Source of the DNA: Planctomycetaceae bacterium
Lineage (GTDB): Bacteria; Planctomycetota; Planctomycetia; Pirellulales; PALSA-1355
Reading direction: 5' to 3'
Assembly: GCA_003153375.1 (NCBI GenBank)
Contig: PLYM01000133.1
Span: 54,149 to 102,091 of the forward strand
DNA length: 47,943 nucleotides
Shown here: positions 3,717-47,943 of the stretch, piece after piece
How the letters are laid out: each line of letters opens with the position of its first letter
How positions within the stretch are numbered: position 1 is the first letter of the stretch
The notes under the pieces: model-generated
The model's database searches: none
Told to the model about the DNA's origin: nothing
What the model saw: only the letters and a program-made list of their open reading frames with translations
Position numbers and translations under genes: made by a program

Positions 3717-4361
3717 ATGGGCCGCCGAGCCTTACGCCGCATCGATCCGGCACTCGATCTGTCGCCGTATCTCGCCCGGCTCGAAGCGCTGCCGCAGCCT
3801 TGGGATCGCGCTGCCCAGTTTGGCCGCCAGGCGCCGCTCGAGATTGAAGTCGGCAGCGGCAAGGGCCTGTTCCTCAGCGCCGCCGCCGCCGGCGATGCCG
3901 AAAGCGACTTCCTGGGCATCGAGATCCTGGCCAAGTACGCCCGCTACGTCGCTTCGCGCCTCGCGCAGAAGCAGTTGACCAACGCCCGCTGCATCCACGG
4001 CGACGCCCAGCACTTTTTCCGCGCCTGGCTCGGCCCCGACAGCGTGCGGGCCGTCCACGTCTACTTTCCCGATCCCTGGTGGAAAGCCCGCCACAAGAAG
4101 CGCCGCGTGATGTGCGAGCCGTTCCTCAAGGACATCGAGCGCGTGCTCGTGCCCGGCGGCACGCTCCACTTCTGGACCGACGTCGAAGAGTACTACCTGA
4201 CGTCGCTCGAGCTGATCGCCGCCCACACCCGCCTCATCGGCCCCCAGCCCGTCGTCGAAAAGCCCGCCGACCACGACCTCGACTACCGCACCCACTTCGA
4301 ACGCCGCATGCGCCTCAACCAAGAAAGCGTCTACCGCTCCGAATTCCACAAAGCGTCGTGA
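3717..4361 (+). CDS. trmB: tRNA (guanine-N7-)-methyltransferase
   Basis: 214 residues, the usual length for TrmB, which methylates N7 of G46 in tRNA with SAM. Motif I is EVGSGKGLF (44-52) and the family-specific substrate signature is YFPDPWWKARHKKRR (116-130), followed by FLKDIERVLVPGG. The C-terminal TDVEEYY and YRTHFERRM segments are also typical. Start ATG at 3717 has AGGAA about 9 nt upstream. A large inverted-repeat element begins 6 nt after the stop codon. Confidence 0.95.
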   Translation: MGRRALRRIDPALDLSPYLARLEALPQPWDRAAQFGRQAPLEIEVGSGKGLFLSAAAAGDAESDFLGIEILAKYARYVASRLAQKQLTNARCIHGDAQHFFRAWLGPDSVRAVHVYFPDPWWKARHKKRRVMCEPFLKDIERVLVPGGTLHFWTDVEEYYLTSLELIAAHTRLIGPQPVVEKPADHDLDYRTHFERRMRLNQESVYRSEFHKAS

Positions 4362-7967: not shown

Positions 7968-8720
7968 ATGGCGGATGAGCAGGCGGAACGACCGAAGATC
8001 GGCGATGTAGGCCGTGCAATAGCCTGGATCCTCTTCATTTGCGTTGTCGTGGCGCTCCTCTACCCTGCGATTCCCAGTTCGCGACACATTCATGGGCGTC
8101 GAGACAGTTGCGCCAATAACATCAAGCAAATCGGCCTGGCGCTCAACGCCTATCACGACCAGTATCACTGCTTCCCGCCGGCTTATATTGCTGACTCGGA
8201 CGGAAAGCCGATGCACAGTTGGCGCGTGATCCTGTTGCCATTCTTCGAGGAGGCTGGGCTGAAGACCCTCTACGAGCAATACGATTTTTCCGAGCCTTGG
8301 AATGGACCACATAACAGCAAACTAGCCGTCGAGTTTTCGATTTATTGCTGCCCGAGCGCGGACGAAGCGCCCTTCAGCACCAACTACGTCGCCGTCGTCG
8401 GCGAGGAAACCGTCTGGCCCGGCACGCGAGGTATGTTGCTTGGCAACGTCACCGACGGAAAGTCGAAGACAATCTCCGTCGTCGAAGTCGCCAACAGCGG
8501 CATTCACTGGATGGAGCCCCGCGATCTGACCTTCGCCGAAGCCCAGCGCGGCATCAACATTCCGGGCGTCAAGCCGGGCATCTCCAGTAATCATGCCGGC
8601 GGCGCGCAGTTCCTGTTTTGCGACGGATCCGTGCATTTCCTAAGCGACAAGATACCGGCGGAAACGCTCCGCGCTCTGTTGACCGCCGAGGGCGGTGAGA
8701 TGGTTGAGATACCCGATTGA
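7968..8720 (+). CDS. DUF1559-type protein, array member 1
   Basis: 250 residues: a short cytoplasmic start, one transmembrane helix (about 18-36) and an exported domain. It carries the conserved DUF1559 body: CANNIKQIGLALNAYHDQYHCFPPAY, HSWRVILLPF, then the C-terminal H-X9-DG-type segment (SNHAGGAQFLFCDGSVHFL). The true prepilin signature (G|FTLVELL) is absent, unlike classic DUF1559 pseudopilins, so processing by prepilin peptidase is unlikely. It starts 7 nt after proB and is the first of four related units. Function of the family is unknown. Confidence 0.85.
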   Translation: MADEQAERPKIGDVGRAIAWILFICVVVALLYPAIPSSRHIHGRRDSCANNIKQIGLALNAYHDQYHCFPPAYIADSDGKPMHSWRVILLPFFEEAGLKTLYEQYDFSEPWNGPHNSKLAVEFSIYCCPSADEAPFSTNYVAVVGEETVWPGTRGMLLGNVTDGKSKTISVVEVANSGIHWMEPRDLTFAEAQRGINIPGVKPGISSNHAGGAQFLFCDGSVHFLSDKIPAETLRALLTAEGGEMVEIPD

Positions 8721-8743
8721 TTGAGACCTGGAACAGCCACCGC

Positions 8744-9496
8744 ATGAAGGACAAGCCACGAAAATCATCGCTGAAGAACAAACTGGGTTGCGCCGTCGCC
8801 AGCGTTGGCGCGGTGCTGGGGCTGGCGGCCCTGTTGCTGCCGATGATCTTCGCCGCGCGCTCCGGCGCGAAGCTAAATACCTGTAACAATCACTTGAAAC
8901 AGCTCGGCATCGCCCTGCTCAACTACGAGAGCGTCTATAAGTCCTTCCCGCCGGCATACGTCGCGGATGCCGACGGCAAGCCGATGCACAGTTGGCGCGT
9001 GCTGTTGCTCCCTTTCCTGGAGAGGCAGGATGTCTACAAAAAGTACGACTTCAACGAACCCTGGAACGGTCCCCACAATCGCCAACTGGCCGGCGAAATG
9101 GATTCTGTTTTTCGCTGTCCCGAAGCCACGGGCGATTCGCAAGAAACCAGCTACGTCGCCGTCGTCGGCTCCGACACCGGCTGGCCCGGCGCCACGCCGA
9201 TAAAGATTCGCGACATGAAGGACGGCCCCTCCAAAACCATCGCGATCGTCGAAGTCGCCAAATCGGGCATCAATTGGATGGAGCCCCGCGACCTGAAATT
9301 GATCGAAGCCATGCAGGGAGTCACCGTCCCCGGTCACGGGCCCGGCCTGAAGATCTCCAGCAATCACGCCGCCGGCGGCGCCAACGTCGGCTATTTTGAC
9401 GCACACGTCTCCTTTCTGCCGGTCGGTTTCTCGCCCGAGGTGCTTCGCGGCCTGCTCACCGCCGCCGGTGGCGAAATCATCAGGGTCCCGGATTGA
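8744..9496 (+). CDS. DUF1559-type protein, array member 2
   Basis: 250 residues from ATG at 8744; an in-frame TTG at 8717 overlaps the previous stop but adds nothing protein-like. A basic N-terminus (KDKPRKSSLKNK) precedes one transmembrane helix (about 13-35) and the exported body with CNNHLKQLGIALLNYESVYK, HSWRVLLLPFLER, YDFNEPWNGPHN and the C-terminal SNHAAGGANVGYFDAHVSFL. It is clearly a paralogue of the genes on each side. It lacks a prepilin cleavage motif. The end of the gene is duplicated immediately downstream (9520-9723). Confidence 0.85.
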   Translation: MKDKPRKSSLKNKLGCAVASVGAVLGLAALLLPMIFAARSGAKLNTCNNHLKQLGIALLNYESVYKSFPPAYVADADGKPMHSWRVLLLPFLERQDVYKKYDFNEPWNGPHNRQLAGEMDSVFRCPEATGDSQETSYVAVVGSDTGWPGATPIKIRDMKDGPSKTIAIVEVAKSGINWMEPRDLKLIEAMQGVTVPGHGPGLKISSNHAAGGANVGYFDAHVSFLPVGFSPEVLRGLLTAAGGEIIRVPD

Positions 9497-9519
9497 TCGG
9501 GGATCGGAAGAGGCAAAGG

Positions 9520-9723
9520 ATGATTGACCAACCAACCGCGAAGCCTGACGGCGACGGCTGCGGACCCGGGCTGAAGATTTCGAGCGATCACGTCCCCGGT
9601 GGAGCACATTTCGGTTTTTTTGACGCGCACGTCTCTTTTCTGTCCAATGGTCTCTCGCCCGACTTGCTACGCGACCTGCTCACGCCCGCCGGCGGCGAGG
9701 AGGTCGTGGAGCCTGGGCAGTAG
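9520..9723 (+). CDS. DUF1559 C-terminal fragment, array member 3
   Basis: 67 residues from ATG at 9520, with AAAGG directly before the start. Only the last domain of the family is present: GPGLKISSDHVPGGAHFGFF, DAHVSFLSNGLSPDLL and the terminal GGEE. The membrane helix and the N-terminal body are missing. It is most similar to the end of the preceding gene, so it probably arose by partial tandem duplication. The frame is intact and a ribosome-binding site is present, so it may be expressed as a small cytoplasmic peptide, or it may be a decaying remnant. Confidence 0.55.
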   Translation: MIDQPTAKPDGDGCGPGLKISSDHVPGGAHFGFFDAHVSFLSNGLSPDLLRDLLTPAGGEEVVEPGQ

Positions 9724-9787
9724 AAACGACCAACAACACCCTTCGCGGCGGTATCTTTCGAAACGTCCCTTTCCAGCGAGGTCCACC

Positions 9788-10567
9788 ATGAGTACCGATC
9801 CTGGCGCGGCGCCCAAACAAGGACTCTCGGGCTGTGTCATTGCCGCGATTGTCGTGGCCTTTGCCGGCGTGGCGCTGTTCTGCTTCGCGGGCATCGGCCT
9901 GGCGCTGCTGCTGCCGGCGGTGCAGGCTGCTCGCGAAGCGGGCCGTCGCAGCCAGTGCATGAACGACATGAAGCAAATCAGCCTGGCACTGTTGAATTAC
10001 CACGACGTCTACCACTCGTTTCCGCCGGCCTTCGTGGCCGATGCCGATGGCAAGCCGATGCACAGTTGGCGGGTCTTGATCCTGCCCTTCATGGAGCAGA
10101 ACCAGCTCTACCAGCAATACGATTTCAACGAGCCCTGGAATGGCCCGAAGAACTCGAGGCTGGCGTCGCAAATGCCCGCGCAGTTTCGCTGCCCCAGCGA
10201 TTCGGTCGATGGCAACAACACCAACTACGTGGCCGTCGTCGGTCCCGAAACCGTCTGGCCGGGGGCCGCTCCGGTCGGCGTTCGCGCCATTCGCGACGGC
10301 ACTTCCAACACCATCCTGCTGGTCGAGAACGTCGGCGCCGGCATCAACTGGCTGGAGCCTCGCGATCTCACGCTCGATGAAGCCCTCCGCGGCATCAACC
10401 CGCCCCATCAGCCGGGCATATCGAGCCACCACCCGGGCGGCGCCGACGCCGTGTTCTGCGACGGGCACGTGCAGTACCTCTCGGACGAGCTCAACCCCAA
10501 CACCCTCCGCGCGCTGCTCACCAAGGACGGCGGCGAACCCGTCAATCCCAACGAACTTGGCTATTGA
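9788..10567 (+). CDS. DUF1559-type protein, array member 4
   Basis: 259 residues. A membrane helix (about 14-39) ends in the family's classic LLLPAVQAAREAGRRSQC motif, followed by MKQISLALLNYHDVYHSFPP, HSWRVLILPFMEQNQLYQQY, YDFNEPWNGPKN and the C-terminal SSHHPGGADAVFCDGHVQYL. Among the four array members it is closest to canonical planctomycete DUF1559 proteins, though the usual FTLVELL segment is replaced by a plain helix. ATG at 9788 follows CCAGCGAGGTCCACC. It is convergent with ppk2. Confidence 0.88.
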   Translation: MSTDPGAAPKQGLSGCVIAAIVVAFAGVALFCFAGIGLALLLPAVQAAREAGRRSQCMNDMKQISLALLNYHDVYHSFPPAFVADADGKPMHSWRVLILPFMEQNQLYQQYDFNEPWNGPKNSRLASQMPAQFRCPSDSVDGNNTNYVAVVGPETVWPGAAPVGVRAIRDGTSNTILLVENVGAGINWLEPRDLTLDEALRGINPPHQPGISSHHPGGADAVFCDGHVQYLSDELNPNTLRALLTKDGGEPVNPNELGY

Positions 10568-16404: not shown

Positions 16405-16872
16405 TTAGCAGCAGCAGCAAACGGGGGTGCCGCCGAAGCAGACGCAGCACATGCAGCCGGCTTTCATGCAGGCCATCATGCACTCGCAGCAGGCCTGGCA
16501 CATGGCGCAGCAATCTTCGTCGCCGCTGGTGCAGGTGATGCACACGCCCATCTTGGTGTCGGTACACTCGCACTTGCACATGGCCATGTTGCACTGGCAC
16601 ATCATCATGCCGTTCATCAGGCAGCAGCAACTGCACATGCTGCCGGCCATCATCTTGCACATGTTCTGCAACGTGGCGGCCGCCAGCTCGTCTTCGCAGG
16701 TGCAGGTCATCTTCATGCCGCCCTTGCACTTTTCCATTTTCATGGTGCAACGGGGGACCATGCACATTTGCATGCCGCCCGGGGCCGCCGCCGGCATGCC
16801 GCCGGACATGGGCGACGCAATCGTGCCCATGGAACCCATCATCCCTTTGTCCATGACCATCATGCTCGTCAT
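16405..16872 (-). CDS. Cys/Met-rich protein, probable metal-binding (155 aa)
   Basis: I count 32 Cys and 32 Met in 155 residues, together about 41%. The first 35 residues are Met/Gly/Ala-rich with few Cys (GMMGSMGTIASPMSGGM). The rest is packed with CC, CxC and CxxC groups, for example MCSCCCLMNGMMMCQC, CCAMCQACCECMMACM and a final CCCC. No signal peptide is evident. Such composition suits Cu(I) or other soft-metal storage or buffering in the cytosol; it recalls copper-storage four-helix proteins in spirit, but the spacing is different and the family is one I know only as uncharacterised. AAGGAG precedes ATG 16872 and a strong terminator follows, so it is a single-gene unit. Confidence 0.88.
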   Translation of the reverse strand: MTSMMVMDKGMMGSMGTIASPMSGGMPAAAPGGMQMCMVPRCTMKMEKCKGGMKMTCTCEDELAAATLQNMCKMMAGSMCSCCCLMNGMMMCQCNMAMCKCECTDTKMGVCITCTSGDEDCCAMCQACCECMMACMKAGCMCCVCFGGTPVCCCC

Positions 16873-17562: not shown

Positions 17563-18936
17563 ATGTTACGTCCTCATCATGTGCTGGACCTGATTGGCAA
17601 CACGCCGCTCGTCGAGCTCCGCGCCCTCGATACCCGGCCCTGCCGTCTGCTGGTCAAGCTCGAGAACCAGAACCCCGGCGGTTCGATCAAGGACCGCATC
17701 GGCCGCTCGATGATCGAAGCCGCCGAACGCGACTCCAAGATCGGCCCGGGCTCGATCCTGGTCGAAGCCACGGCCGGCAACACCGGCCTGGGCCTGGCAC
17801 TGGTGGCCGCGCAAAAGGGCTATCGCCTGATCTTGGTGATTCCCGACAAAATGAGCCGCGAAAAAGTGTGCCACCTGAAAGCGCTGGGCGCCGAGGTGGT
17901 CATGACCCGCAGCGACGTCGGCCGCGGCCATCCGCAGTACTACCAGGACCTGGCCGAACGCATCACCCGCGATACGCCCGGCGCCTACTACATCAACCAA
18001 TTCAACAATCCGGCCAACCCGCTGGCCCACGAGATGACGACCGGCCCCGAGATTTGGCAGCAAACCGAGGGACAAGTGGACGCCGTGGTCTGTGGCGTCG
18101 GGTCCGGCGGCACGCTGGCGGGCCTGAGCCGCTACTTTGCCCGCACCGCGCCGCAAGTTGAGATCGTGCTCGCCGATCCGGCCGGATCGGTTCTGGCCGC
18201 GTACCTGGAAACTGGCCAGATCGGCGAAGCCGGCTCGTGGGTGGTCGAGGGCATCGGCGAAGACTTCATCCCCGCCATTGCCGACCTGTCGCGCGTGACG
18301 CGCGCCTTCACGATCACGGACCTGGAGAGCCTGACCACGGCCCGCGAGCTGTTGAGCCGCGAGGGCATTCTGGCCGGCTCGTCGTCCGGCACCATGGTCG
18401 CCGCCGCGTTGCGCTACTGCCGCGAGCAAACCAAGCCCAAGACGGTCGTGACGTTTGTTTGCGACTCGGGCAATAAGTACCTCTCCAAGATGTTCAACGA
18501 CCACTGGATGCAGGACCAGGGATTTCGCGCGACGACCGAATTTGGCGACCTGCGCGACTTGATCGTGCGGCGCTTTGCCGAAGGAGCCGTGGTCAGCGTG
18601 ATCAGCGCCGAGCCTTTGGCGATCGCCTATACGCGGATGCGGCTCTATGACGTCTCGCAGTTGCCCGTGGTCGACGATGGTCGGATCGTGGGCATTCTGG
18701 ACGAGTCGGATTTGCTGCTGGCCGTCAGCGCCGGAGCGAGCGCATTCCAACAGCCGGTTTCAAGCTTCATGACCACGAAGCTCGAAACCGTGCGGCCGCA
18801 AACGCCGCTGGAGGAACTGCTGCCGATTTTTGATGCTGGCCGTGTGGCCATCGTAGCCGACGACAGCGGCTTCCATGGCCTGATCACGCGCGTGGACGTG
18901 TTGAATTATCTGCGACGTCGACAAAAGGTCGCCTGA
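17563..18936 (+). CDS. Cystathionine beta-synthase-like PLP enzyme with tandem CBS domains
   Basis: 457 residues. The PLP domain (about 1-320) has NPGGSIKDRIG with Lys43 as the Schiff-base lysine, EATAGNTGLGLAL for substrate carboxylate binding, VGSGGTLAG for the PLP phosphate and SSSGTMVA. The C-terminal part (about 330-457) is a pair of CBS domains (DVSQLPVVDDGRIVGILDES and VAIVADDSGFHGLITRVDVL), usually a SAM- or nucleotide-sensing module. The likely reaction joins serine or O-acetylserine with homocysteine to cystathionine, the first step of reverse transsulfuration; an O-acetylserine sulfhydrylase role cannot be excluded. The partner gene starts 15 nt downstream. Confidence 0.92.
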   Translation: MLRPHHVLDLIGNTPLVELRALDTRPCRLLVKLENQNPGGSIKDRIGRSMIEAAERDSKIGPGSILVEATAGNTGLGLALVAAQKGYRLILVIPDKMSREKVCHLKALGAEVVMTRSDVGRGHPQYYQDLAERITRDTPGAYYINQFNNPANPLAHEMTTGPEIWQQTEGQVDAVVCGVGSGGTLAGLSRYFARTAPQVEIVLADPAGSVLAAYLETGQIGEAGSWVVEGIGEDFIPAIADLSRVTRAFTITDLESLTTARELLSREGILAGSSSGTMVAAALRYCREQTKPKTVVTFVCDSGNKYLSKMFNDHWMQDQGFRATTEFGDLRDLIVRRFAEGAVVSVISAEPLAIAYTRMRLYDVSQLPVVDDGRIVGILDESDLLLAVSAGASAFQQPVSSFMTTKLETVRPQTPLEELLPIFDAGRVAIVADDSGFHGLITRVDVLNYLRRRQKVA

Positions 18937-29781: not shown

Positions 29782-32294
29782 TGCTGCGGAGCTACACGTA
29801 CCGCGAGTTCATACGCCGTCCGGGTCGAACCTTGTTGACATTGGGCGGGATCGTCATTGGCGTGGCGGGCGTTTTTGCCATCGCGCTAACCGTCCACACG
29901 ACGCGGAACGCTTATCGGCAAATGTTCGCCGACCTGGCCGGTCGCGCCGAACTGGAAGTGGTGGCCGACGGCGGCGGTGGGTTCGATCCCGAAATCGCGG
30001 CCGGCCTCGCGGCCGTGCCGGGCGTCCGCTCAGCGCGCCCCGTGGTGCGCATGGTCGCCGGATTCGTGAGTGGATCCAATCCGCTGGGAGTGATGGTCGT
30101 GGGTGCCGACGCCTCGGCCGATGACGTTCTTGACCGCCTGGTTTCCGGCCGACGCATCGAAGCCGACGATGAGATTCTTCTGGTCGATAACTTCGCGAGG
30201 AGCTTGCACGTCGCCGAGCAGGCGACCGCGCGGCTGGTGACGCCTTCGGGCGTGAAGCGGTTTCGCGTCGTGGGCCTGGTCGAGCCCACGGGAATCGCCG
30301 GCTTCAATGGCGGGGCCGTGGTGTTCGTGTCGCTCCAAGCGGCGCGGCAATTGTTCAAGCTCTCTGGGCAAGTCACGGCGATCCCCATCGAATTGGTACC
30401 CGGAGCCGACGCCGAAGCGGTTCGAGCCACGATTGCCAGCCAACTTCCGGCGGGGATGTTGGTGCGATCGCCGGCTGCCCGTGGCGACCTGGCCCAACAC
30501 AGCCTGCTGGCCGCCGAGCAAGGACTTTCCGCGCTCTCGGCGGTTTCGGTCGTGGCGGGTGCGTTCGTGATTCTCAACTCCTTCCTGATGAGCCTTGGCG
30601 AGCGACGCCGACAGTTGGCGATCCTGCGCGCGATCGGAGTTACCAGTGGGCAGATTACGCGCTTGTTGCTGCGAGAGGCCTTGGTCTTGGGCGTCGTCGG
30701 CATGATCGTTGGCGTGGCTGTGGGTCTGGTGACTTCCATGTTGCTCGTGCAGGGCATGGAACGGCTGCTAGGCATTGAATTGCGCCACCTGGAACTTGCC
30801 CCGATGCCCTTCGTCGAGGCGGCATTGTTCGGTCCCGTCATGGCCCTTTTGGCCACGCTCGCTCCCTCGATTCGAGCCGCCAAACGGCCGCCCTTGGCCG
30901 ACTTGCTCGGGTTGCAAGCCAAGGGCAGCGACAGCATGGTCTCAAAAATGTCGCGACTCGGGCTGGCGGTCGGAATTGGATCGACGATTGGCGTGACCGC
31001 GTTCGTGATGGGATGGATTCCTCGCGAGGCCCAGAAATTCCTGGCGACTCCCCTGCTGTGCACCTTTCTCATCAGTGGCATTTTGCTGATGCCCACGCTG
31101 TATCCACGACTGGCTCGTGTGATGAGGCTGTTGTTTGGGCGACTGTGGGGCATCGAGGGACGGCTGGCCGCGCGGCAACTGGAGCGCAACGCCACCCGCA
31201 GCGGGTTGACGGCCGCCATCTTGTGCGTGGCGCTCGTGATTTCGATCTCGATGGGCCAGTCCATCCGCAACAGCATCCGCGACATCGAGGAGTGGTCGGA
31301 GCGCACTTTCACGGCCGATTACATGGTGCGCGGCTGTTTGCCCGAGTTGAGCTATTCGATTGGCGTGCAATTGCCCGAGTCGATGCACGATGAACTGGCC
31401 GCCATCAAAGGGGTGGAGAAGGTTCACGAGTTGAACTTGTTGCAGGTCAAGGCGGGCGGCGAGGACGTGGTCGTGCTGGCCCGATCGTTCGACGATCGCA
31501 CGGCGGCGACGCTCGACATCGCCGCGGGCGAGCGAGTCGCAGTGATCGAAGGGCTGTTTGCCGGCGACGCCGTGGTGGGCACCGCGCTCGCGCAGCGACT
31601 GAAGCTGCACATTGGAGACCGACTACCCTTGCGCACGCGAAAAGGCGAGCAGCATGTGCGCATCGCGGGCGAGGTGACCGAATATGTCGCTGGCGGGATG
31701 GCGCTGTACCTGGAGCGTAAGACGGCCAAGCGACTGTTCGACTTCGAAGGCGTCGACGTCTACATGGTCATGGCTCACAAGGAGTCCACGCTCGGCGTGG
31801 GCGAGGCGGTGCGTGCGTTTTGCGACAGTCGAGGTTTGATGTTCCAGTCCAACGCCCAGTTTCGCGAGCGCATTCGCCAGATGATGGGCGGCATCATCGG
31901 CTTTCTGTGGCTGCTGATGGCAGTGGTCTTTGTCGTCGCATCGTTGGGCATCGTGAATACCTTGACGATGAACGTCATGGAGCAGACACGAGAGATTGCC
32001 GTGCTGCGATCCGTGGCCATGCGGCGTAGCCAGATTCGATTGATGGTGCTGTATCAGGCGCTTAGCCTCAGCCTGTGCAGCCTGCCGCCGGGCGTCGCGA
32101 TGGGATTGCTCCTGGCATTTCTGATGAATCTTTCGACGCACGTGCTGTTGGGTCAGCCGGTCGAATTCCATGCCGAGGCCGGCTTTGTGCTCGGCTGTTG
32201 CGTTGCCTGTCTGCTCATTGGTTGGGCAGCGGCGTGGATTCCGGCTCGGCGCGCCTCGCGACTCGAGATCGTCGCAGCCTTGCAGTATGAGTAG
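29778..32294 (+). CDS. FtsX-type ABC transporter permease
   Basis: 838 residues, a double-length permease. The N-terminal helix (TLLTLGGIVIGVAGVFAIAL) is followed by a large periplasmic domain (about 45-245), then an FtsX-like three-helix block with the LGERRRQLAILRAIGVTSGQ coupling region. After a central membrane part and a second periplasmic domain comes a second FtsX block (about 710-838) with MEQTREIAVLRSVAMRRSQI. This duplicated layout is that of lipoprotein or antimicrobial-type exporters without an attached adaptor. No adaptor or outer-membrane gene is adjacent; cargo unknown. Confidence 0.92.
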
Positions 32295-43509: not shown

Positions 43510-45645
43510 ATGAAAACCATTTACCAAACCACAAGGTCAGTCGTTTTGCTCGCGGCCTTTGCGACGATGGCTGCTTGGGCCCTAGCTGCCGACGGCGATA
43601 GCGCGGCCAAGGAAAAAGAACTTATCGAGAAACTCCGATCGGACTCGCCTGCTGCCGAAAAGGCGGTCGCCTGCAAACAACTGGCCGTCTATGGCTCCCG
43701 CGATGCGGTTACGGATTTGGCGCGCCTTCTGACCGACGAGAGCCTTGCCTCGTGGTCGCGAATTGCGCTCGAGGCGATTCCCGGCCCGGAAGCGAGCGAA
43801 GCGTTGCGCAAGGCGATGCCGTCGCTGCAAGGAAGACTTCTGATCGGCACGATCAATTCGCTCGGTGTTCGCCGCGACGAGGGCGCCGTCGATCCCTTGA
43901 CCGCGCGCTTGCAGGATGCGGACACGGAAGTAGCGTCGGCCGCGGCGGTTGCCTTGGGGAAGATCGGAAACGGCGCCGCGACCAAATCGCTCCGCGGATC
44001 GCTGGTCGGCGCCCCGGTCAAAGTCCGCACGGCCGTTGCCGAGGGCTGTATCCTCTGTGCCGAACGTCTCATGGCCGAAGGAAAAGCTGGCGAAGCGATG
44101 GAAATCTATGACGAGGTGCGCCGCTCTGACGTTCCCAAACAGAAGATCATCGAGGCAACTCGCGGAGCGATTCTGGCTCGGAAGTCCGATGGAATTCCGC
44201 TCTTGATCGAGCAACTACGTTCCGAGGACAAGGGACTGTTTCAGATTGGCTTGGGCGCCGCGCGCGAGCTTCCGGGACGTGAAGTGGCCGATGCCCTGGC
44301 GGCTGAACTGAGCCGTGCCACGCCGGATCGAGCGGCCCTGATCCTTCTAGTCTTCCCCAATCGTAACGAATCGGGGCTTCCGTCGGCCGTTTTCGAGGTC
44401 GCCAAACGAGGTCCCAAGCCGGTGCGCATCGCGGCCATTGGCGTCATTGGGCGAATGGGTGACGCTGCCAGTTTGTCGACGCTGCTCGAGATCGCGAGCG
44501 AAAGCGACGAGGAGTTGACGCAAGCGGCGAAGACGGCGCTGGCCAACCTGCCGGATGCCAATGTCAATTCGGAGGTTGTGGCCCGACTCGCCAAGGCCGA
44601 GGGCAAGACGCTGGCGGTCTTGATCGAGCTGGTTGGGCTGCGGCGAATTGACGCGACGTCGGCTCTCGTCAAGGCGCTCGATCATCCCGGTGCCGCGATT
44701 CGCAGCGCTGCGCTGGCAGCGCTGGGGGCCACGGTCGGAGCCAAGGACGTGCCGTTGTTGGTTTCGCAGGTCGTTTCGCCCAAGAATTCTGGCGATGCGC
44801 AGGCAGCTCAAAAGGCCCTGCGCGCCGCATGTATCCGGATGCCCGACCGTGAGGGATGCGCCGCGGTGCTCGCCGCCGCGATGTCGCGTGCGCCAGCCTC
44901 AACCAAGGCGACCCTTTTGGAAATCCTCGGCGCTATGGGAGGACCCAAGGCGCTCGAGACGATTGCCGTCGCGGTCAAAGGGAACGATCCAGAACTTCAA
45001 GACACCGGCAGCCGATTGCTTGGCGAGTGGATGACCGTGGATGCCGGGCCGGCGTTATTGGATCTGGCGAAAACCGCGCCGAGCGACAAGTACCAGGTCC
45101 GTGCCCTGCGCGGTTACATCCGGCTGGCGCGCCAATTCGCCGGGTCGGATCAGCAACGCGCCGAAATGTGCCAGACCGCGCTGGATGTCTCGGGTCGTGC
45201 CGCGGAACAGCAACTGGTGCTGAACGTGCTCGAAAAATATCCCAGCGCCGACGGCCTCAAGGTCGTTATCAAAGCCACGGAAGTGCCGGCCTTGAAGGAT
45301 GATGCGACGCGCGCGGTACTGGTCATCGCTCAGAAGCTGGGCGATAAAGCCGGCGACGTGCGGGCGCTGCTATCCAAAATCGGCATGGACCCTGTCAAAG
45401 TGGAAATCATCAAGGCCGAGTACGGAGCCGGGTCAAAACAAAAGGATGTGACCGAGGCCCTTCAGCGGCGGGTTCGCGACTTGCCACTCATTACCTTACC
45501 CTCTCCAAGCTACAGCTCCAGCTTCGGCGGTGACCCGGTGCCGGGAACCCGGAAGCAGTTGAGGGTGCAGTACCGAATCAACGGTAAAGAAGGCGAGGCG
45601 TCGTTCCCGGAAGACGCGGTGGTCATGCTTCCGATGCCCAAGTAA
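43510..45645 (+). CDS. Secreted HEAT-repeat protein (711 aa)
   Basis: Signal peptide MKTIYQTTRSVVLLAAFATM with cleavage near ALA-ADGD. Roughly residues 35-600 are tandem HEAT-type helical repeats (for example DPLTARLQDADTEVASAAAV and ALIKALD-like units such as LVKALDHPGAAIRSAALAAL). The last 80 residues form a distinct domain (VEIIKAEYGAGSKQKDVTEA, then LRVQYRINGKEGEASFPEDA) that recurs at the end of planctomycete secreted proteins and may bind the cell surface or a sugar. It probably acts as a binding scaffold; no enzyme motif. Downstream of and co-directional with the oxidoreductase. Confidence 0.87.
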   Translation: MKTIYQTTRSVVLLAAFATMAAWALAADGDSAAKEKELIEKLRSDSPAAEKAVACKQLAVYGSRDAVTDLARLLTDESLASWSRIALEAIPGPEASEALRKAMPSLQGRLLIGTINSLGVRRDEGAVDPLTARLQDADTEVASAAAVALGKIGNGAATKSLRGSLVGAPVKVRTAVAEGCILCAERLMAEGKAGEAMEIYDEVRRSDVPKQKIIEATRGAILARKSDGIPLLIEQLRSEDKGLFQIGLGAARELPGREVADALAAELSRATPDRAALILLVFPNRNESGLPSAVFEVAKRGPKPVRIAAIGVIGRMGDAASLSTLLEIASESDEELTQAAKTALANLPDANVNSEVVARLAKAEGKTLAVLIELVGLRRIDATSALVKALDHPGAAIRSAALAALGATVGAKDVPLLVSQVVSPKNSGDAQAAQKALRAACIRMPDREGCAAVLAAAMSRAPASTKATLLEILGAMGGPKALETIAVAVKGNDPELQDTGSRLLGEWMTVDAGPALLDLAKTAPSDKYQVRALRGYIRLARQFAGSDQQRAEMCQTALDVSGRAAEQQLVLNVLEKYPSADGLKVVIKATEVPALKDDATRAVLVIAQKLGDKAGDVRALLSKIGMDPVKVEIIKAEYGAGSKQKDVTEALQRRVRDLPLITLPSPSYSSSFGGDPVPGTRKQLRVQYRINGKEGEASFPEDAVVMLPMPK

Positions 45646-45830
45646 TTGGATACACTCAGGCGTCTTGCATCGATCATCGGGCGATATGCCTGGCGGCCGG
45701 CGCATTGACGCGTGCTTTCCAGTTTGTTGGAACGTCTCGCGGGTCACGCGTAGTTGAGCGACTCAGTTTCTTTTCGTCGGTCTCGCAGTTGGTCGCACCC
45801 ATGGGTGCGCGCCGATGGTTTGGCCGGAAA

Positions 45831-45977
45831 GTCACGCCGCTTACCGACGCCAGCGTTCCGATACTCGCCCATTGCAGATCGCTGACATCCATTACGTTGT
45901 TCCGCTCCGACCTGACAGATGCGGGCCGAGAGCGGCTTCACCAGGCGTTTCCCGACCGTGAGATCGACGATCTCTAG
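45831..45977 (+). pseudogene. Leucine-rich-repeat gene remnant
   Basis: The frame ending at 45977 contains LTDASVPILAHCRSLTSITL followed by FRSDLTDAGRERLHQAFPDR, two leucine-rich repeats of the LTD-type common in planctomycete proteins. The in-frame sequence before 45831 is not LRR-like and there is no convincing start or signal. It is best seen as the 3' end of a degraded gene. Confidence 0.5.
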
Positions 45978-46014: not shown

Positions 46015-46046
46015 AAAGCCCCGACTCGTTTCCGATTCGGGGCTTT
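46015..46046. terminator. Hairpin terminator, bidirectional
   Basis: AAAGCCCCGACTCG (46015-46028) pairs with CGATTCGGGGCTTT (46033-46046) with one mismatch and a TTTC loop; A/T runs flank both sides. On the minus strand it starts 5 nt after the tRNA 3' end at 46052, the normal place for a tRNA terminator. On the plus strand it would stop read-through from the LRR remnant. Confidence 0.8.
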
Positions 46047-46051
46047 CAGAG

Positions 46052-46093
46052 TGCTCCCTGTTGGACTTGAGCCAACAACCCTCTGATTAAAAG
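46052..46093 (-). other. 3' half of tRNA-Lys(UUU), putative attachment site
   Basis: On the minus strand the bases fit a tRNA from position 32 to 73: anticodon loop CTTTTAA (46093-46087, anticodon UUU), 3' anticodon stem TCAGA, 5-nt variable loop GGGTT, T arm GTTGG-CTCAAGT-CCAAC with a perfect stem, acceptor strand AGGGAGC and discriminator A at 46052. No CCA is encoded. The expected 5' parts (TCTGA stem, D arm, GCTCCCT acceptor) are absent; the DNA just before position 32 reads GGGCT. A gene half beginning exactly in the anticodon loop is the typical remnant left at the distal end of an element integrated into a tRNA gene. Confidence 0.75.
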
Positions 46094-47036
46094 AGCCCTC
46101 CTGGAAGACGCCGAAATACCTGAAATCTCCGGGAGTTTTGCGATTGTGGCAGCCGCGGCGCGCATTGCAAGACGTTGCAAATGATTGCCTTATTCTGCGG
46201 GTGATCGCGGTATCTCGGCGAACGAATCCGGTAGTCTACCAGGTGCCAAAACAAGATGATCAACCACGGTCTTCGTGATCGCGCTCGTCGTGCAAGGCGG
46301 CCAGGATCGCCCGTCGAACATTCAACATGACTTGGACGTTTTTAGTCCGCTGCGCAACGTGAAGCGCGCAGCGGGCTGCTACTCCAAACGACAAAGAACA
46401 ACGATCGGAAATCATTTTTTTGAGAATCCGAAGCGAACGGACGAATGACACACAACTTGCCGCGACCGCGTGCAGCACTTGCCTTTCGAGCAGGCACCGA
46501 ATGCCGCGCGCATACTTGCGCATTTCGGTAATGACGAAGTTTTTGAGAATCGCACAAGTGCCGTGTCGAATCGGTCTTAGGCCACAATCGCAAACAGTTT
46601 TGCCACTGCAGCCGATCGAATTGGAACGCGGTTTTCATATAGCAAGTAGGTTTCTTGCCCCCAAGCAACGGCGCCGCCCCAGTCACCGACAGCGAATCGT
46701 GTCCCACCCTTTCTGCGATGCTGAGCGCCGCTCGAGTTGAGTTTCATGCCCCAGACTAATCAGTATCCGAACAACGATTCGAAGGGCTGGCCGAGTTCGT
46801 TGGTTCATCACGGCTCACCTATCGCGATTCGCAAGCTGTCTCGTCGTGGGAAGGGGCCGGCTGATTGAATCCAATCGTATTCGCCATCCGGCGGCCGGCG
46901 ACGACGTTGATGGTCGCCCTCTTGTGTGGCGGCTTGCCGGCCCTAGAGAACGACGTGCGTGAACGTCTTCCCCTCGTTGATCGAAGTTAAGTGATCCACT
47001 TCGTAACCTAACAGGCAACCAAACGAGCGAAAAAAT
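46094..47036. other. Gene-poor region, possible end of an integrated element
   Basis: 943 bp with no supported gene. Base composition is more mixed than in the flanking planctomycete genes. Open frames of about 90-120 codons exist on the minus strand (46260-46523 and 46342-46707), but they overlap each other, lack ribosome-binding sites and resemble no family. I saw no integrase remnant, tRNA or CRISPR-like array. Confidence 0.45.
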
Positions 47037-47943
47037 ATGAAAATCTCACTAATCCTGGCCGCCATCCTGGCGCTGATTTCTCTCTCCCTGTCTGCTTGCA
47101 ACATGCACCAGGAGGAGGCTCCCCACGAGCACCATAAGATCGTGGCCACCAGCCCTCAGTCGAAGTCCGTTATCCTCACCCAGCGATATGTCTGCCAAAT
47201 CCACTCGAAGCGGCACATCCAGGTCCGTGCCTTGGAGATGGGGTATCTCGAGGCGATCCCAGTCAGAGAGGGGCAGCAGGTGAAGGAGGGTGACCCGATG
47301 TTCAAGGTCATCCCAACCCTTTACCAGGCAAAGCTTGACGCCGAGGTAGCGGAGGCCCAGCTCGCGCAACTGGAGTTCGATTACACCAAGAAGCTCTACG
47401 AGGACAAAGTGGTCTCTCAGAATGAGGTGAAGCTGCTCGGGGCCAAGCGGGCAAAGGCCCAAGCCAGAGCGGACCAGGCGCGGGCTGAATTGAACTTTGC
47501 CACCGTCAAGGCACCTTTTGACGGCATCGTGGACCGTCTGCACCACCAGCAGGGCAGTCTGGTCCAGGAGGGAGAGATTCTCACGACCTTGTCTGACAAC
47601 AGCCTGATGTGGGTTTATTTCAACGTCCCCGAAAAGCAGTACCTCGAATACATGGCCGACCTGAATCAGCGTAAGGACGATCTGCAAATCGAGCTCATGC
47701 TGACGGGCAACAACAAGTTCCCGCAGATCGGCAAGATCGGTGCGATCGAGGCTGACTTCAACAATGCGAATGGGAACATCAAATTCCGCGCGGATTTTCC
47801 GAACCCGGACCGCCTGCTGCGTCACGGTCAGACCGGCAACGTGTTGATCCGCCGAGTGCAGAATGACGCCATCGTCATCCCTCAACGGGCGGTTTTTGAG
47901 GTTCTCGCCAAGCGGTATGTTTACGTCGTCGACAAAGATGATG
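47037..47943 (+). CDS. RND-type efflux periplasmic adaptor, lipoprotein (3' end outside window)
   Basis: 302 codons are present and the gene continues past the window. The start is MKISLILAAILALISLSLSA followed by the lipobox Cys21. Then come a lipoyl/barrel-sandwich half (MGYLEAIPVREGQQVKEGDP), a long alpha-hairpin (about 104-150, QLEFDYTKKLYEDKVVSQNE and RAKAQARADQ), the second lipoyl half (ATVKAPFDGIVDRLHHQQGS) and beta-barrel segments (MWVYFNVPEKQYLEY). This is the membrane-fusion protein of a tripartite RND pump, with pump and channel genes expected downstream. ATG at 47037 has only a weak AGCGA upstream. It lies on the predicted element side of the tRNA half. Confidence 0.9.
   Translation, partial: MKISLILAAILALISLSLSACNMHQEEAPHEHHKIVATSPQSKSVILTQRYVCQIHSKRHIQVRALEMGYLEAIPVREGQQVKEGDPMFKVIPTLYQAKLDAEVAEAQLAQLEFDYTKKLYEDKVVSQNEVKLLGAKRAKAQARADQARAELNFATVKAPFDGIVDRLHHQQGSLVQEGEILTTLSDNSLMWVYFNVPEKQYLEYMADLNQRKDDLQIELMLTGNNKFPQIGKIGAIEADFNNANGNIKFRADFPNPDRLLRHGQTGNVLIRRVQNDAIVIPQRAVFEVLAKRYVYVVDKDD

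Follow-up and report, generated by a model that had tools for sequence, protein, structure and literature searches.

Positions 46052-46093 (minus strand) of the window, that is, of the whole 47,943-nt stretch of DNA that was analysed (G000:C261:54149-102091), very probably mark the attR-type end, carrying the displaced fragment, of tyrosine-integrase-type islands that are arrayed in tandem with tRNA-Lys(CUU) as their attB. These 42 nucleotides are a genuine integration footprint of a known kind, and the anticodon-loop class of tRNA-targeted islands (site 'A') has already been described among Islander-type islands (PMC4383910). The right end of the window coincides with the end of its contig, and the assembly of the source genome is fragmented into 291 contigs. 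An earlier note on this DNA had pictured one element at this site; that picture gives way here to an array of several elements.

The fragment runs from anticodon-loop position 32 to the discriminator (CTTTTAATCAGAGGGTTGTTGGCTCAAGTCCAACAGGGAGCA, with CT immediately before it). As the earlier note held, it is a real 3' half of a tRNA-Lys, with a perfect T stem of 5 bp and with the 5' half of the tRNA missing. ARAGORN and Rfam at gathering thresholds call zero tRNAs in the window, and a permissive Rfam scan gives the half 21.3 bits, where the gathering score is 29; a reading of the Rfam alignment as a mini-tRNA was dropped because its score lies under the threshold. The half is not a chance resemblance, since the genome holds two further halves of the same gene, each identical to the intact gene over 44 bases (C154:11882-11925 and C232:3690-3733, both on the minus strand), although with an estimated contamination of 4.2% in the assembly either contig could be foreign. 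A pattern scan of genome contigs for the half-tRNA returned eight stretches, seven of them intact genes. The same pattern went unmatched in viral contigs, and plasmid and phage collections gave no DNA match to the site.

The parent of this fragment is tRNA-Lys(CUU) and not, as had been claimed, tRNA-Lys(UUU). Intact tRNA-Lys(CUU) genes from the same genus (G001 C102) and the same family (G003 C10) read GCTCCCTTAGCTCAATTGGCAGAGCATCTGACTCTTAATCAGAGGGTTGTTGGTTCAAGTCCAACAGGGAGCA, and the fragment shares 40 of its last 44 bases with the same-genus gene, compared with only 5 of the 29 bases before those. The 3' half of the genome's own intact tRNA-Lys(UUU), by comparison, is unlike the half in the window. 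The anticodon loop reads CTTTTAA in the fragment and CTCTTAA in the intact genes of the same genus and family, so that the apparent UUU anticodon results from a C-to-T difference at position 34. This is one of two substitutions in the tRNA part of the window half, the other being T to C at the first base of the T loop; both are to be expected of a displaced half that is out of use. The halves on C154 and C232 carry no such substitutions.

Beyond the discriminator, a terminator-like hairpin on the minus strand (46015-46046) folds computationally into 14-nt arms that are 93% complementary, closed by a 4-nt loop. The terminator hairpin claimed at this place is thus confirmed as a hairpin, starting 5 nt after the discriminator as described, while its call as a terminator is not: because only TTT follows the arms and a simple terminator scan does not call the structure, it is graded as terminator-like only. 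It is probably the native terminator of the tRNA gene.

On the other side of the fragment, positions 46094-46413 (320 bp, minus strand) form the adjoining end of an integrated element, recognized by homology to the flank of a tRNA-Phe half on contig C13. Over 137 alignment columns, 132 bp of this end match the C13 flank at 65.7% identity, with an alignment score of 31 that none of 400 shuffles reaches (maximum, 16). The flank of a tRNA-Asp half on C101 matches more weakly, its score being reached by 3 of 400 shuffles. Within the element end lies a near-palindrome, CCGGTAGTCTACCAGG (46228-46243), and the tRNA-Phe element has CCGGTAGTCTACCGG near its tRNA end; to judge from the letters, the near-palindrome may be a candidate binding site. 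The element end also shows a perfect 14-nt inverted repeat (46137-46150 and 46581-46594; TTTGCGATTGTGGC and GCCACAATCGCAAA) with arms 430 nt apart. Separately, a conserved leader, AAGTC..GCCGAAATC....TTAGATTACCTGCC, occurs ~8-45 nt past several integrase-bearing tRNAs (L002, L005, L013, L014, C182, the C101 half and L058), and most of these leaders then carry a variable palindrome centred on GTA..TAC. Leader and palindromes are possibly candidate sites for an integrase or a regulator.

Elements of the same build occur at other tRNA genes of this genome and at tRNA-Lys(CUU) in relatives. On C13, an intact tRNA-Phe (3744-3816) is followed 12.7 kb on by a Phe half that starts at 16406; the interval holds a Cus-type set of metal efflux genes and, next to the tRNA, a truncated ORF resembling an integrase. 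On C101, 15.6 kb separate an intact tRNA-Asp from a 42-base Asp half, and each of the two has an integrase as neighbour. In G041, a tyrosine integrase lies 3' of the intact tRNA-Lys(CUU) (79312), and two halves stand at 32234 and 19052; in G033 the intact gene (19155) has a half 2.1 kb away (21235). All these halves keep the parental orientation. Both genomes show an intact parent on the same replicon with the fragment on its 3' side, whereas the parent is absent from the fragmented assembly of the source genome. The same-genus tRNA-Lys(CUU) of G001 has a tyrosine integrase 54 nt downstream. An integrase inside the element is present for Asp in the source genome and for Lys in G001 and G041. 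In all fragments compared (Lys, Asp and Phe; three genomes), identity to the parent is lost at, or within 2 bases of, anticodon-loop position 32, which agrees with the crossover of the anticodon-loop class of tRNA-targeted islands. The fragment in the window likewise has the sharp 5' breakpoint and the end at the tRNA 3' terminus of a displaced tDNA fragment.

The DNA to the right of the half carries efflux cargo. An RND efflux membrane-fusion protein (47037-47942, plus strand; Pfam HlyD_D23, 3.7e-21) is truncated by the contig end, and contig C232 opens with the C-terminal 60 residues of such a protein, followed by its permease. Aligned to shared homologues, the protein pieces on C261 and C232 abut except for two missing residues, consistent with a gap of ~4 nt. 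Joining the contigs through this one split protein, rather than through reads, places ~5.6 kb with RND efflux genes between two halves of the same orientation. The order on C232 is an AcrB-like permease, whose reading frame is broken by short N runs, then a C5 DNA methylase fragment, then the second half-tRNA. Within the order, 37 of 197 genomes encode the efflux protein, the source genome among them, and no close copy was found in the three nearest relatives searched (G001, G002 and G003). Each member of the array has its own tRNA fragment. No integrase was found in the stretch bounded by the window half and the half on C232, and the methylase fragment occupies the position expected for one; this first unit is therefore classed as an integrase-less part of the array and not as an autonomous island, and it has probably become fixed or can be mobilised only in trans. 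Further along C232, an ORF at 18262-18624 was judged by eye to be integrase-like. The methylase-fragment ORF (L041 3302-3730) continues across the half-tRNA in antisense, which gives it the terminal peptide LLDLNQQPSD; peptide ends of this sort in annotations may be tRNA-fragment artefacts.

The earlier expectation that an element lies to the right of 46093, with the intact tRNA-Lys at its far end, holds in its first part. A displaced native half, with an anticodon-loop crossover and an element extending rightward, is well supported by the other copies, the related intact genes, the matching element end and the cargo missing from near relatives. The second part is not borne out in this assembly: further right, the first tRNA feature is the C232 half, no intact tRNA-Lys(CUU) was found in the 291 contigs, and no integrase was found in the first unit. 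A gene for a GAF/sigma-54 regulator, recognized by its sequence, precedes tRNA-Lys(CUU) in G001, G003 and G033. A close copy of this neighbour is absent from the assembly, where the best matches are paralogues at 42% identity, so the assembly seems to lack this part of the chromosome, and the intact gene would sit in a gap.

On the left, the presumed chromosome side is marked by a HEAT-repeat-like gene (43510-45645, plus strand) with a 74% identical protein in a same-genus genome. No half-tRNA was found at that same-genus locus, where only a two-gene block is conserved; because synteny is gone on both sides of the block, the locus is uninformative as an empty-site test. The window's left-hand genes do not stand beside tRNA-Lys(CUU) in G001 or G003. 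The left flank is presumed, rather than seen, to be original chromosome, because the comparison proposed earlier turned up no relative in which this left flank borders an empty site. A short ORF between the HEAT-like gene and the hairpin (45705-45977) resembles a leucine-rich-repeat remnant. Elsewhere in the window, an ORF of 155 aa (16405-16872, minus strand) is extremely rich in cysteine and methionine and is possibly metal binding or a spurious frame, and three similar consecutive ORFs of ~250-320 aa (7968-10567, plus strand) look like tandem paralogues.

These arrangements are best accounted for by repeated site-specific integration. The attP of an element would carry a copy of the tRNA 3' half, and a tyrosine integrase, presumably of the sort seen beside the intact genes, would recombine it with the tRNA gene of the chromosome, the crossover falling within the anticodon loop. 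At one end, the tRNA would be rebuilt intact; at the other, the native 3' half and its hairpin would be displaced to where 46052-46093 now lies. Later integrations into the rebuilt tRNA would then leave the further halves on C232 and C154.

A different history would make the half-tRNA a relic of one old integration whose element has mostly been deleted or rearranged, the efflux genes having come by other recombination and not as cargo. Such a history would suit the substitutions in the tRNA part of the window half, which the C154 and C232 halves do not share, as well as the absence of an integrase between the halves and the methylase fragment at the second one. It is nonetheless unlikely, given that the Phe element end shows homology, at about the same distance, to the flank on the right of the half and that the efflux genes lie between two halves of the same orientation.

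Other routes to the same fragments are far less plausible. Serine recombinases, and not tyrosine integrases, could have moved the Lys(CUU) elements, as serine-recombinase ORFs lie right of both further halves: one at C232 4020-4340 and a large one at C154 13264-14535 (L040), cut by the contig end and 1.3 kb from the half tRNA-Lys. The two ORFs, however, do not match one another, and in G001 and G041 the intact Lys(CUU) genes have tyrosine integrases as neighbours. Tyrosine integrases are, moreover, the only enzymes known to target tRNA genes (PMC4383910). The serine mechanism was set aside on account of the mutual mismatch of the ORFs and the integrases at the relatives' intact genes, and it is regarded as highly improbable. 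Displaced tRNA fragments and their other sources have been treated before (PMC9897764), and partial tRNA copies can indeed have other origins, such as CRISPR spacers (PMC9897764). Even so, chance or a gene-conversion duplication of the tRNA fragment, in the absence of site-specific recombination, is scarcely credible here: several fragments, derived from three tRNAs and spread over three genomes, share a break in the anticodon loop, keep the parent's orientation and have integrases beside their parents, and the common breakpoint and the element ends already contradict such an origin.

The array described here shares with Islander-type islands a displaced 3' tDNA fragment, a crossover in the anticodon loop, the parent's orientation and, in relatives, an integrase beside the intact tRNA. 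It differs from them in that the intact parent is unseen in the assembly, the first unit has no integrase and three fragments derive from one tRNA. Tycheposons, small elements of Prochlorococcus that integrate at tRNAs, offer a resemblance in outline: there too, tRNA genes gather stacks of small cargo elements and remnants of tRNA fragments. SGI1 has another attachment site and unrelated cargo. What the present array has in common with tandem islands such as SGI1 arrays is repeated integration at a single attachment site (PMC2297512).

The wider context is a genome rich in integrases beside tRNAs. For at least 12 of its 39 tRNA genes, a tyrosine integrase domain is encoded no more than 1.2 kb away on the 3' side: in six cases convergently, at 141-197 nt, and in six co-directionally, at 691-1179 nt. 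Five relatives, judged by eye, have at least 3 to 8 such integrase-flanked tRNAs each, from which it follows that the habit is common in the order, with the source genome at the high end. In the Islander survey, with its 3919 islands, just four arrays comprise at least three (PMC4383910). Its mean of 3.0 islands per genome having any (PMC4383910) can be set beside the 12 of 39 only as an indication, as the criteria differ. A limited literature search, among open papers, found no description of such abundance of integrase-flanked tRNAs in Planctomycetes. The site itself is textbook biology, and its value lies in pointing to this integrase-rich set of tRNAs. Two elements with related ends in the genome carry RND efflux systems. 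Tentatively, and with somewhat less than even confidence, Pirellulales may hold a diversified family of tyrosine-integrase elements in which each member is adapted to a different tRNA gene, a common leader lies beside the tRNA and efflux or metal-pump cargo is shuffled among members, so that about a third of the tRNA genes of one cell would serve as docks for stacked cargo.
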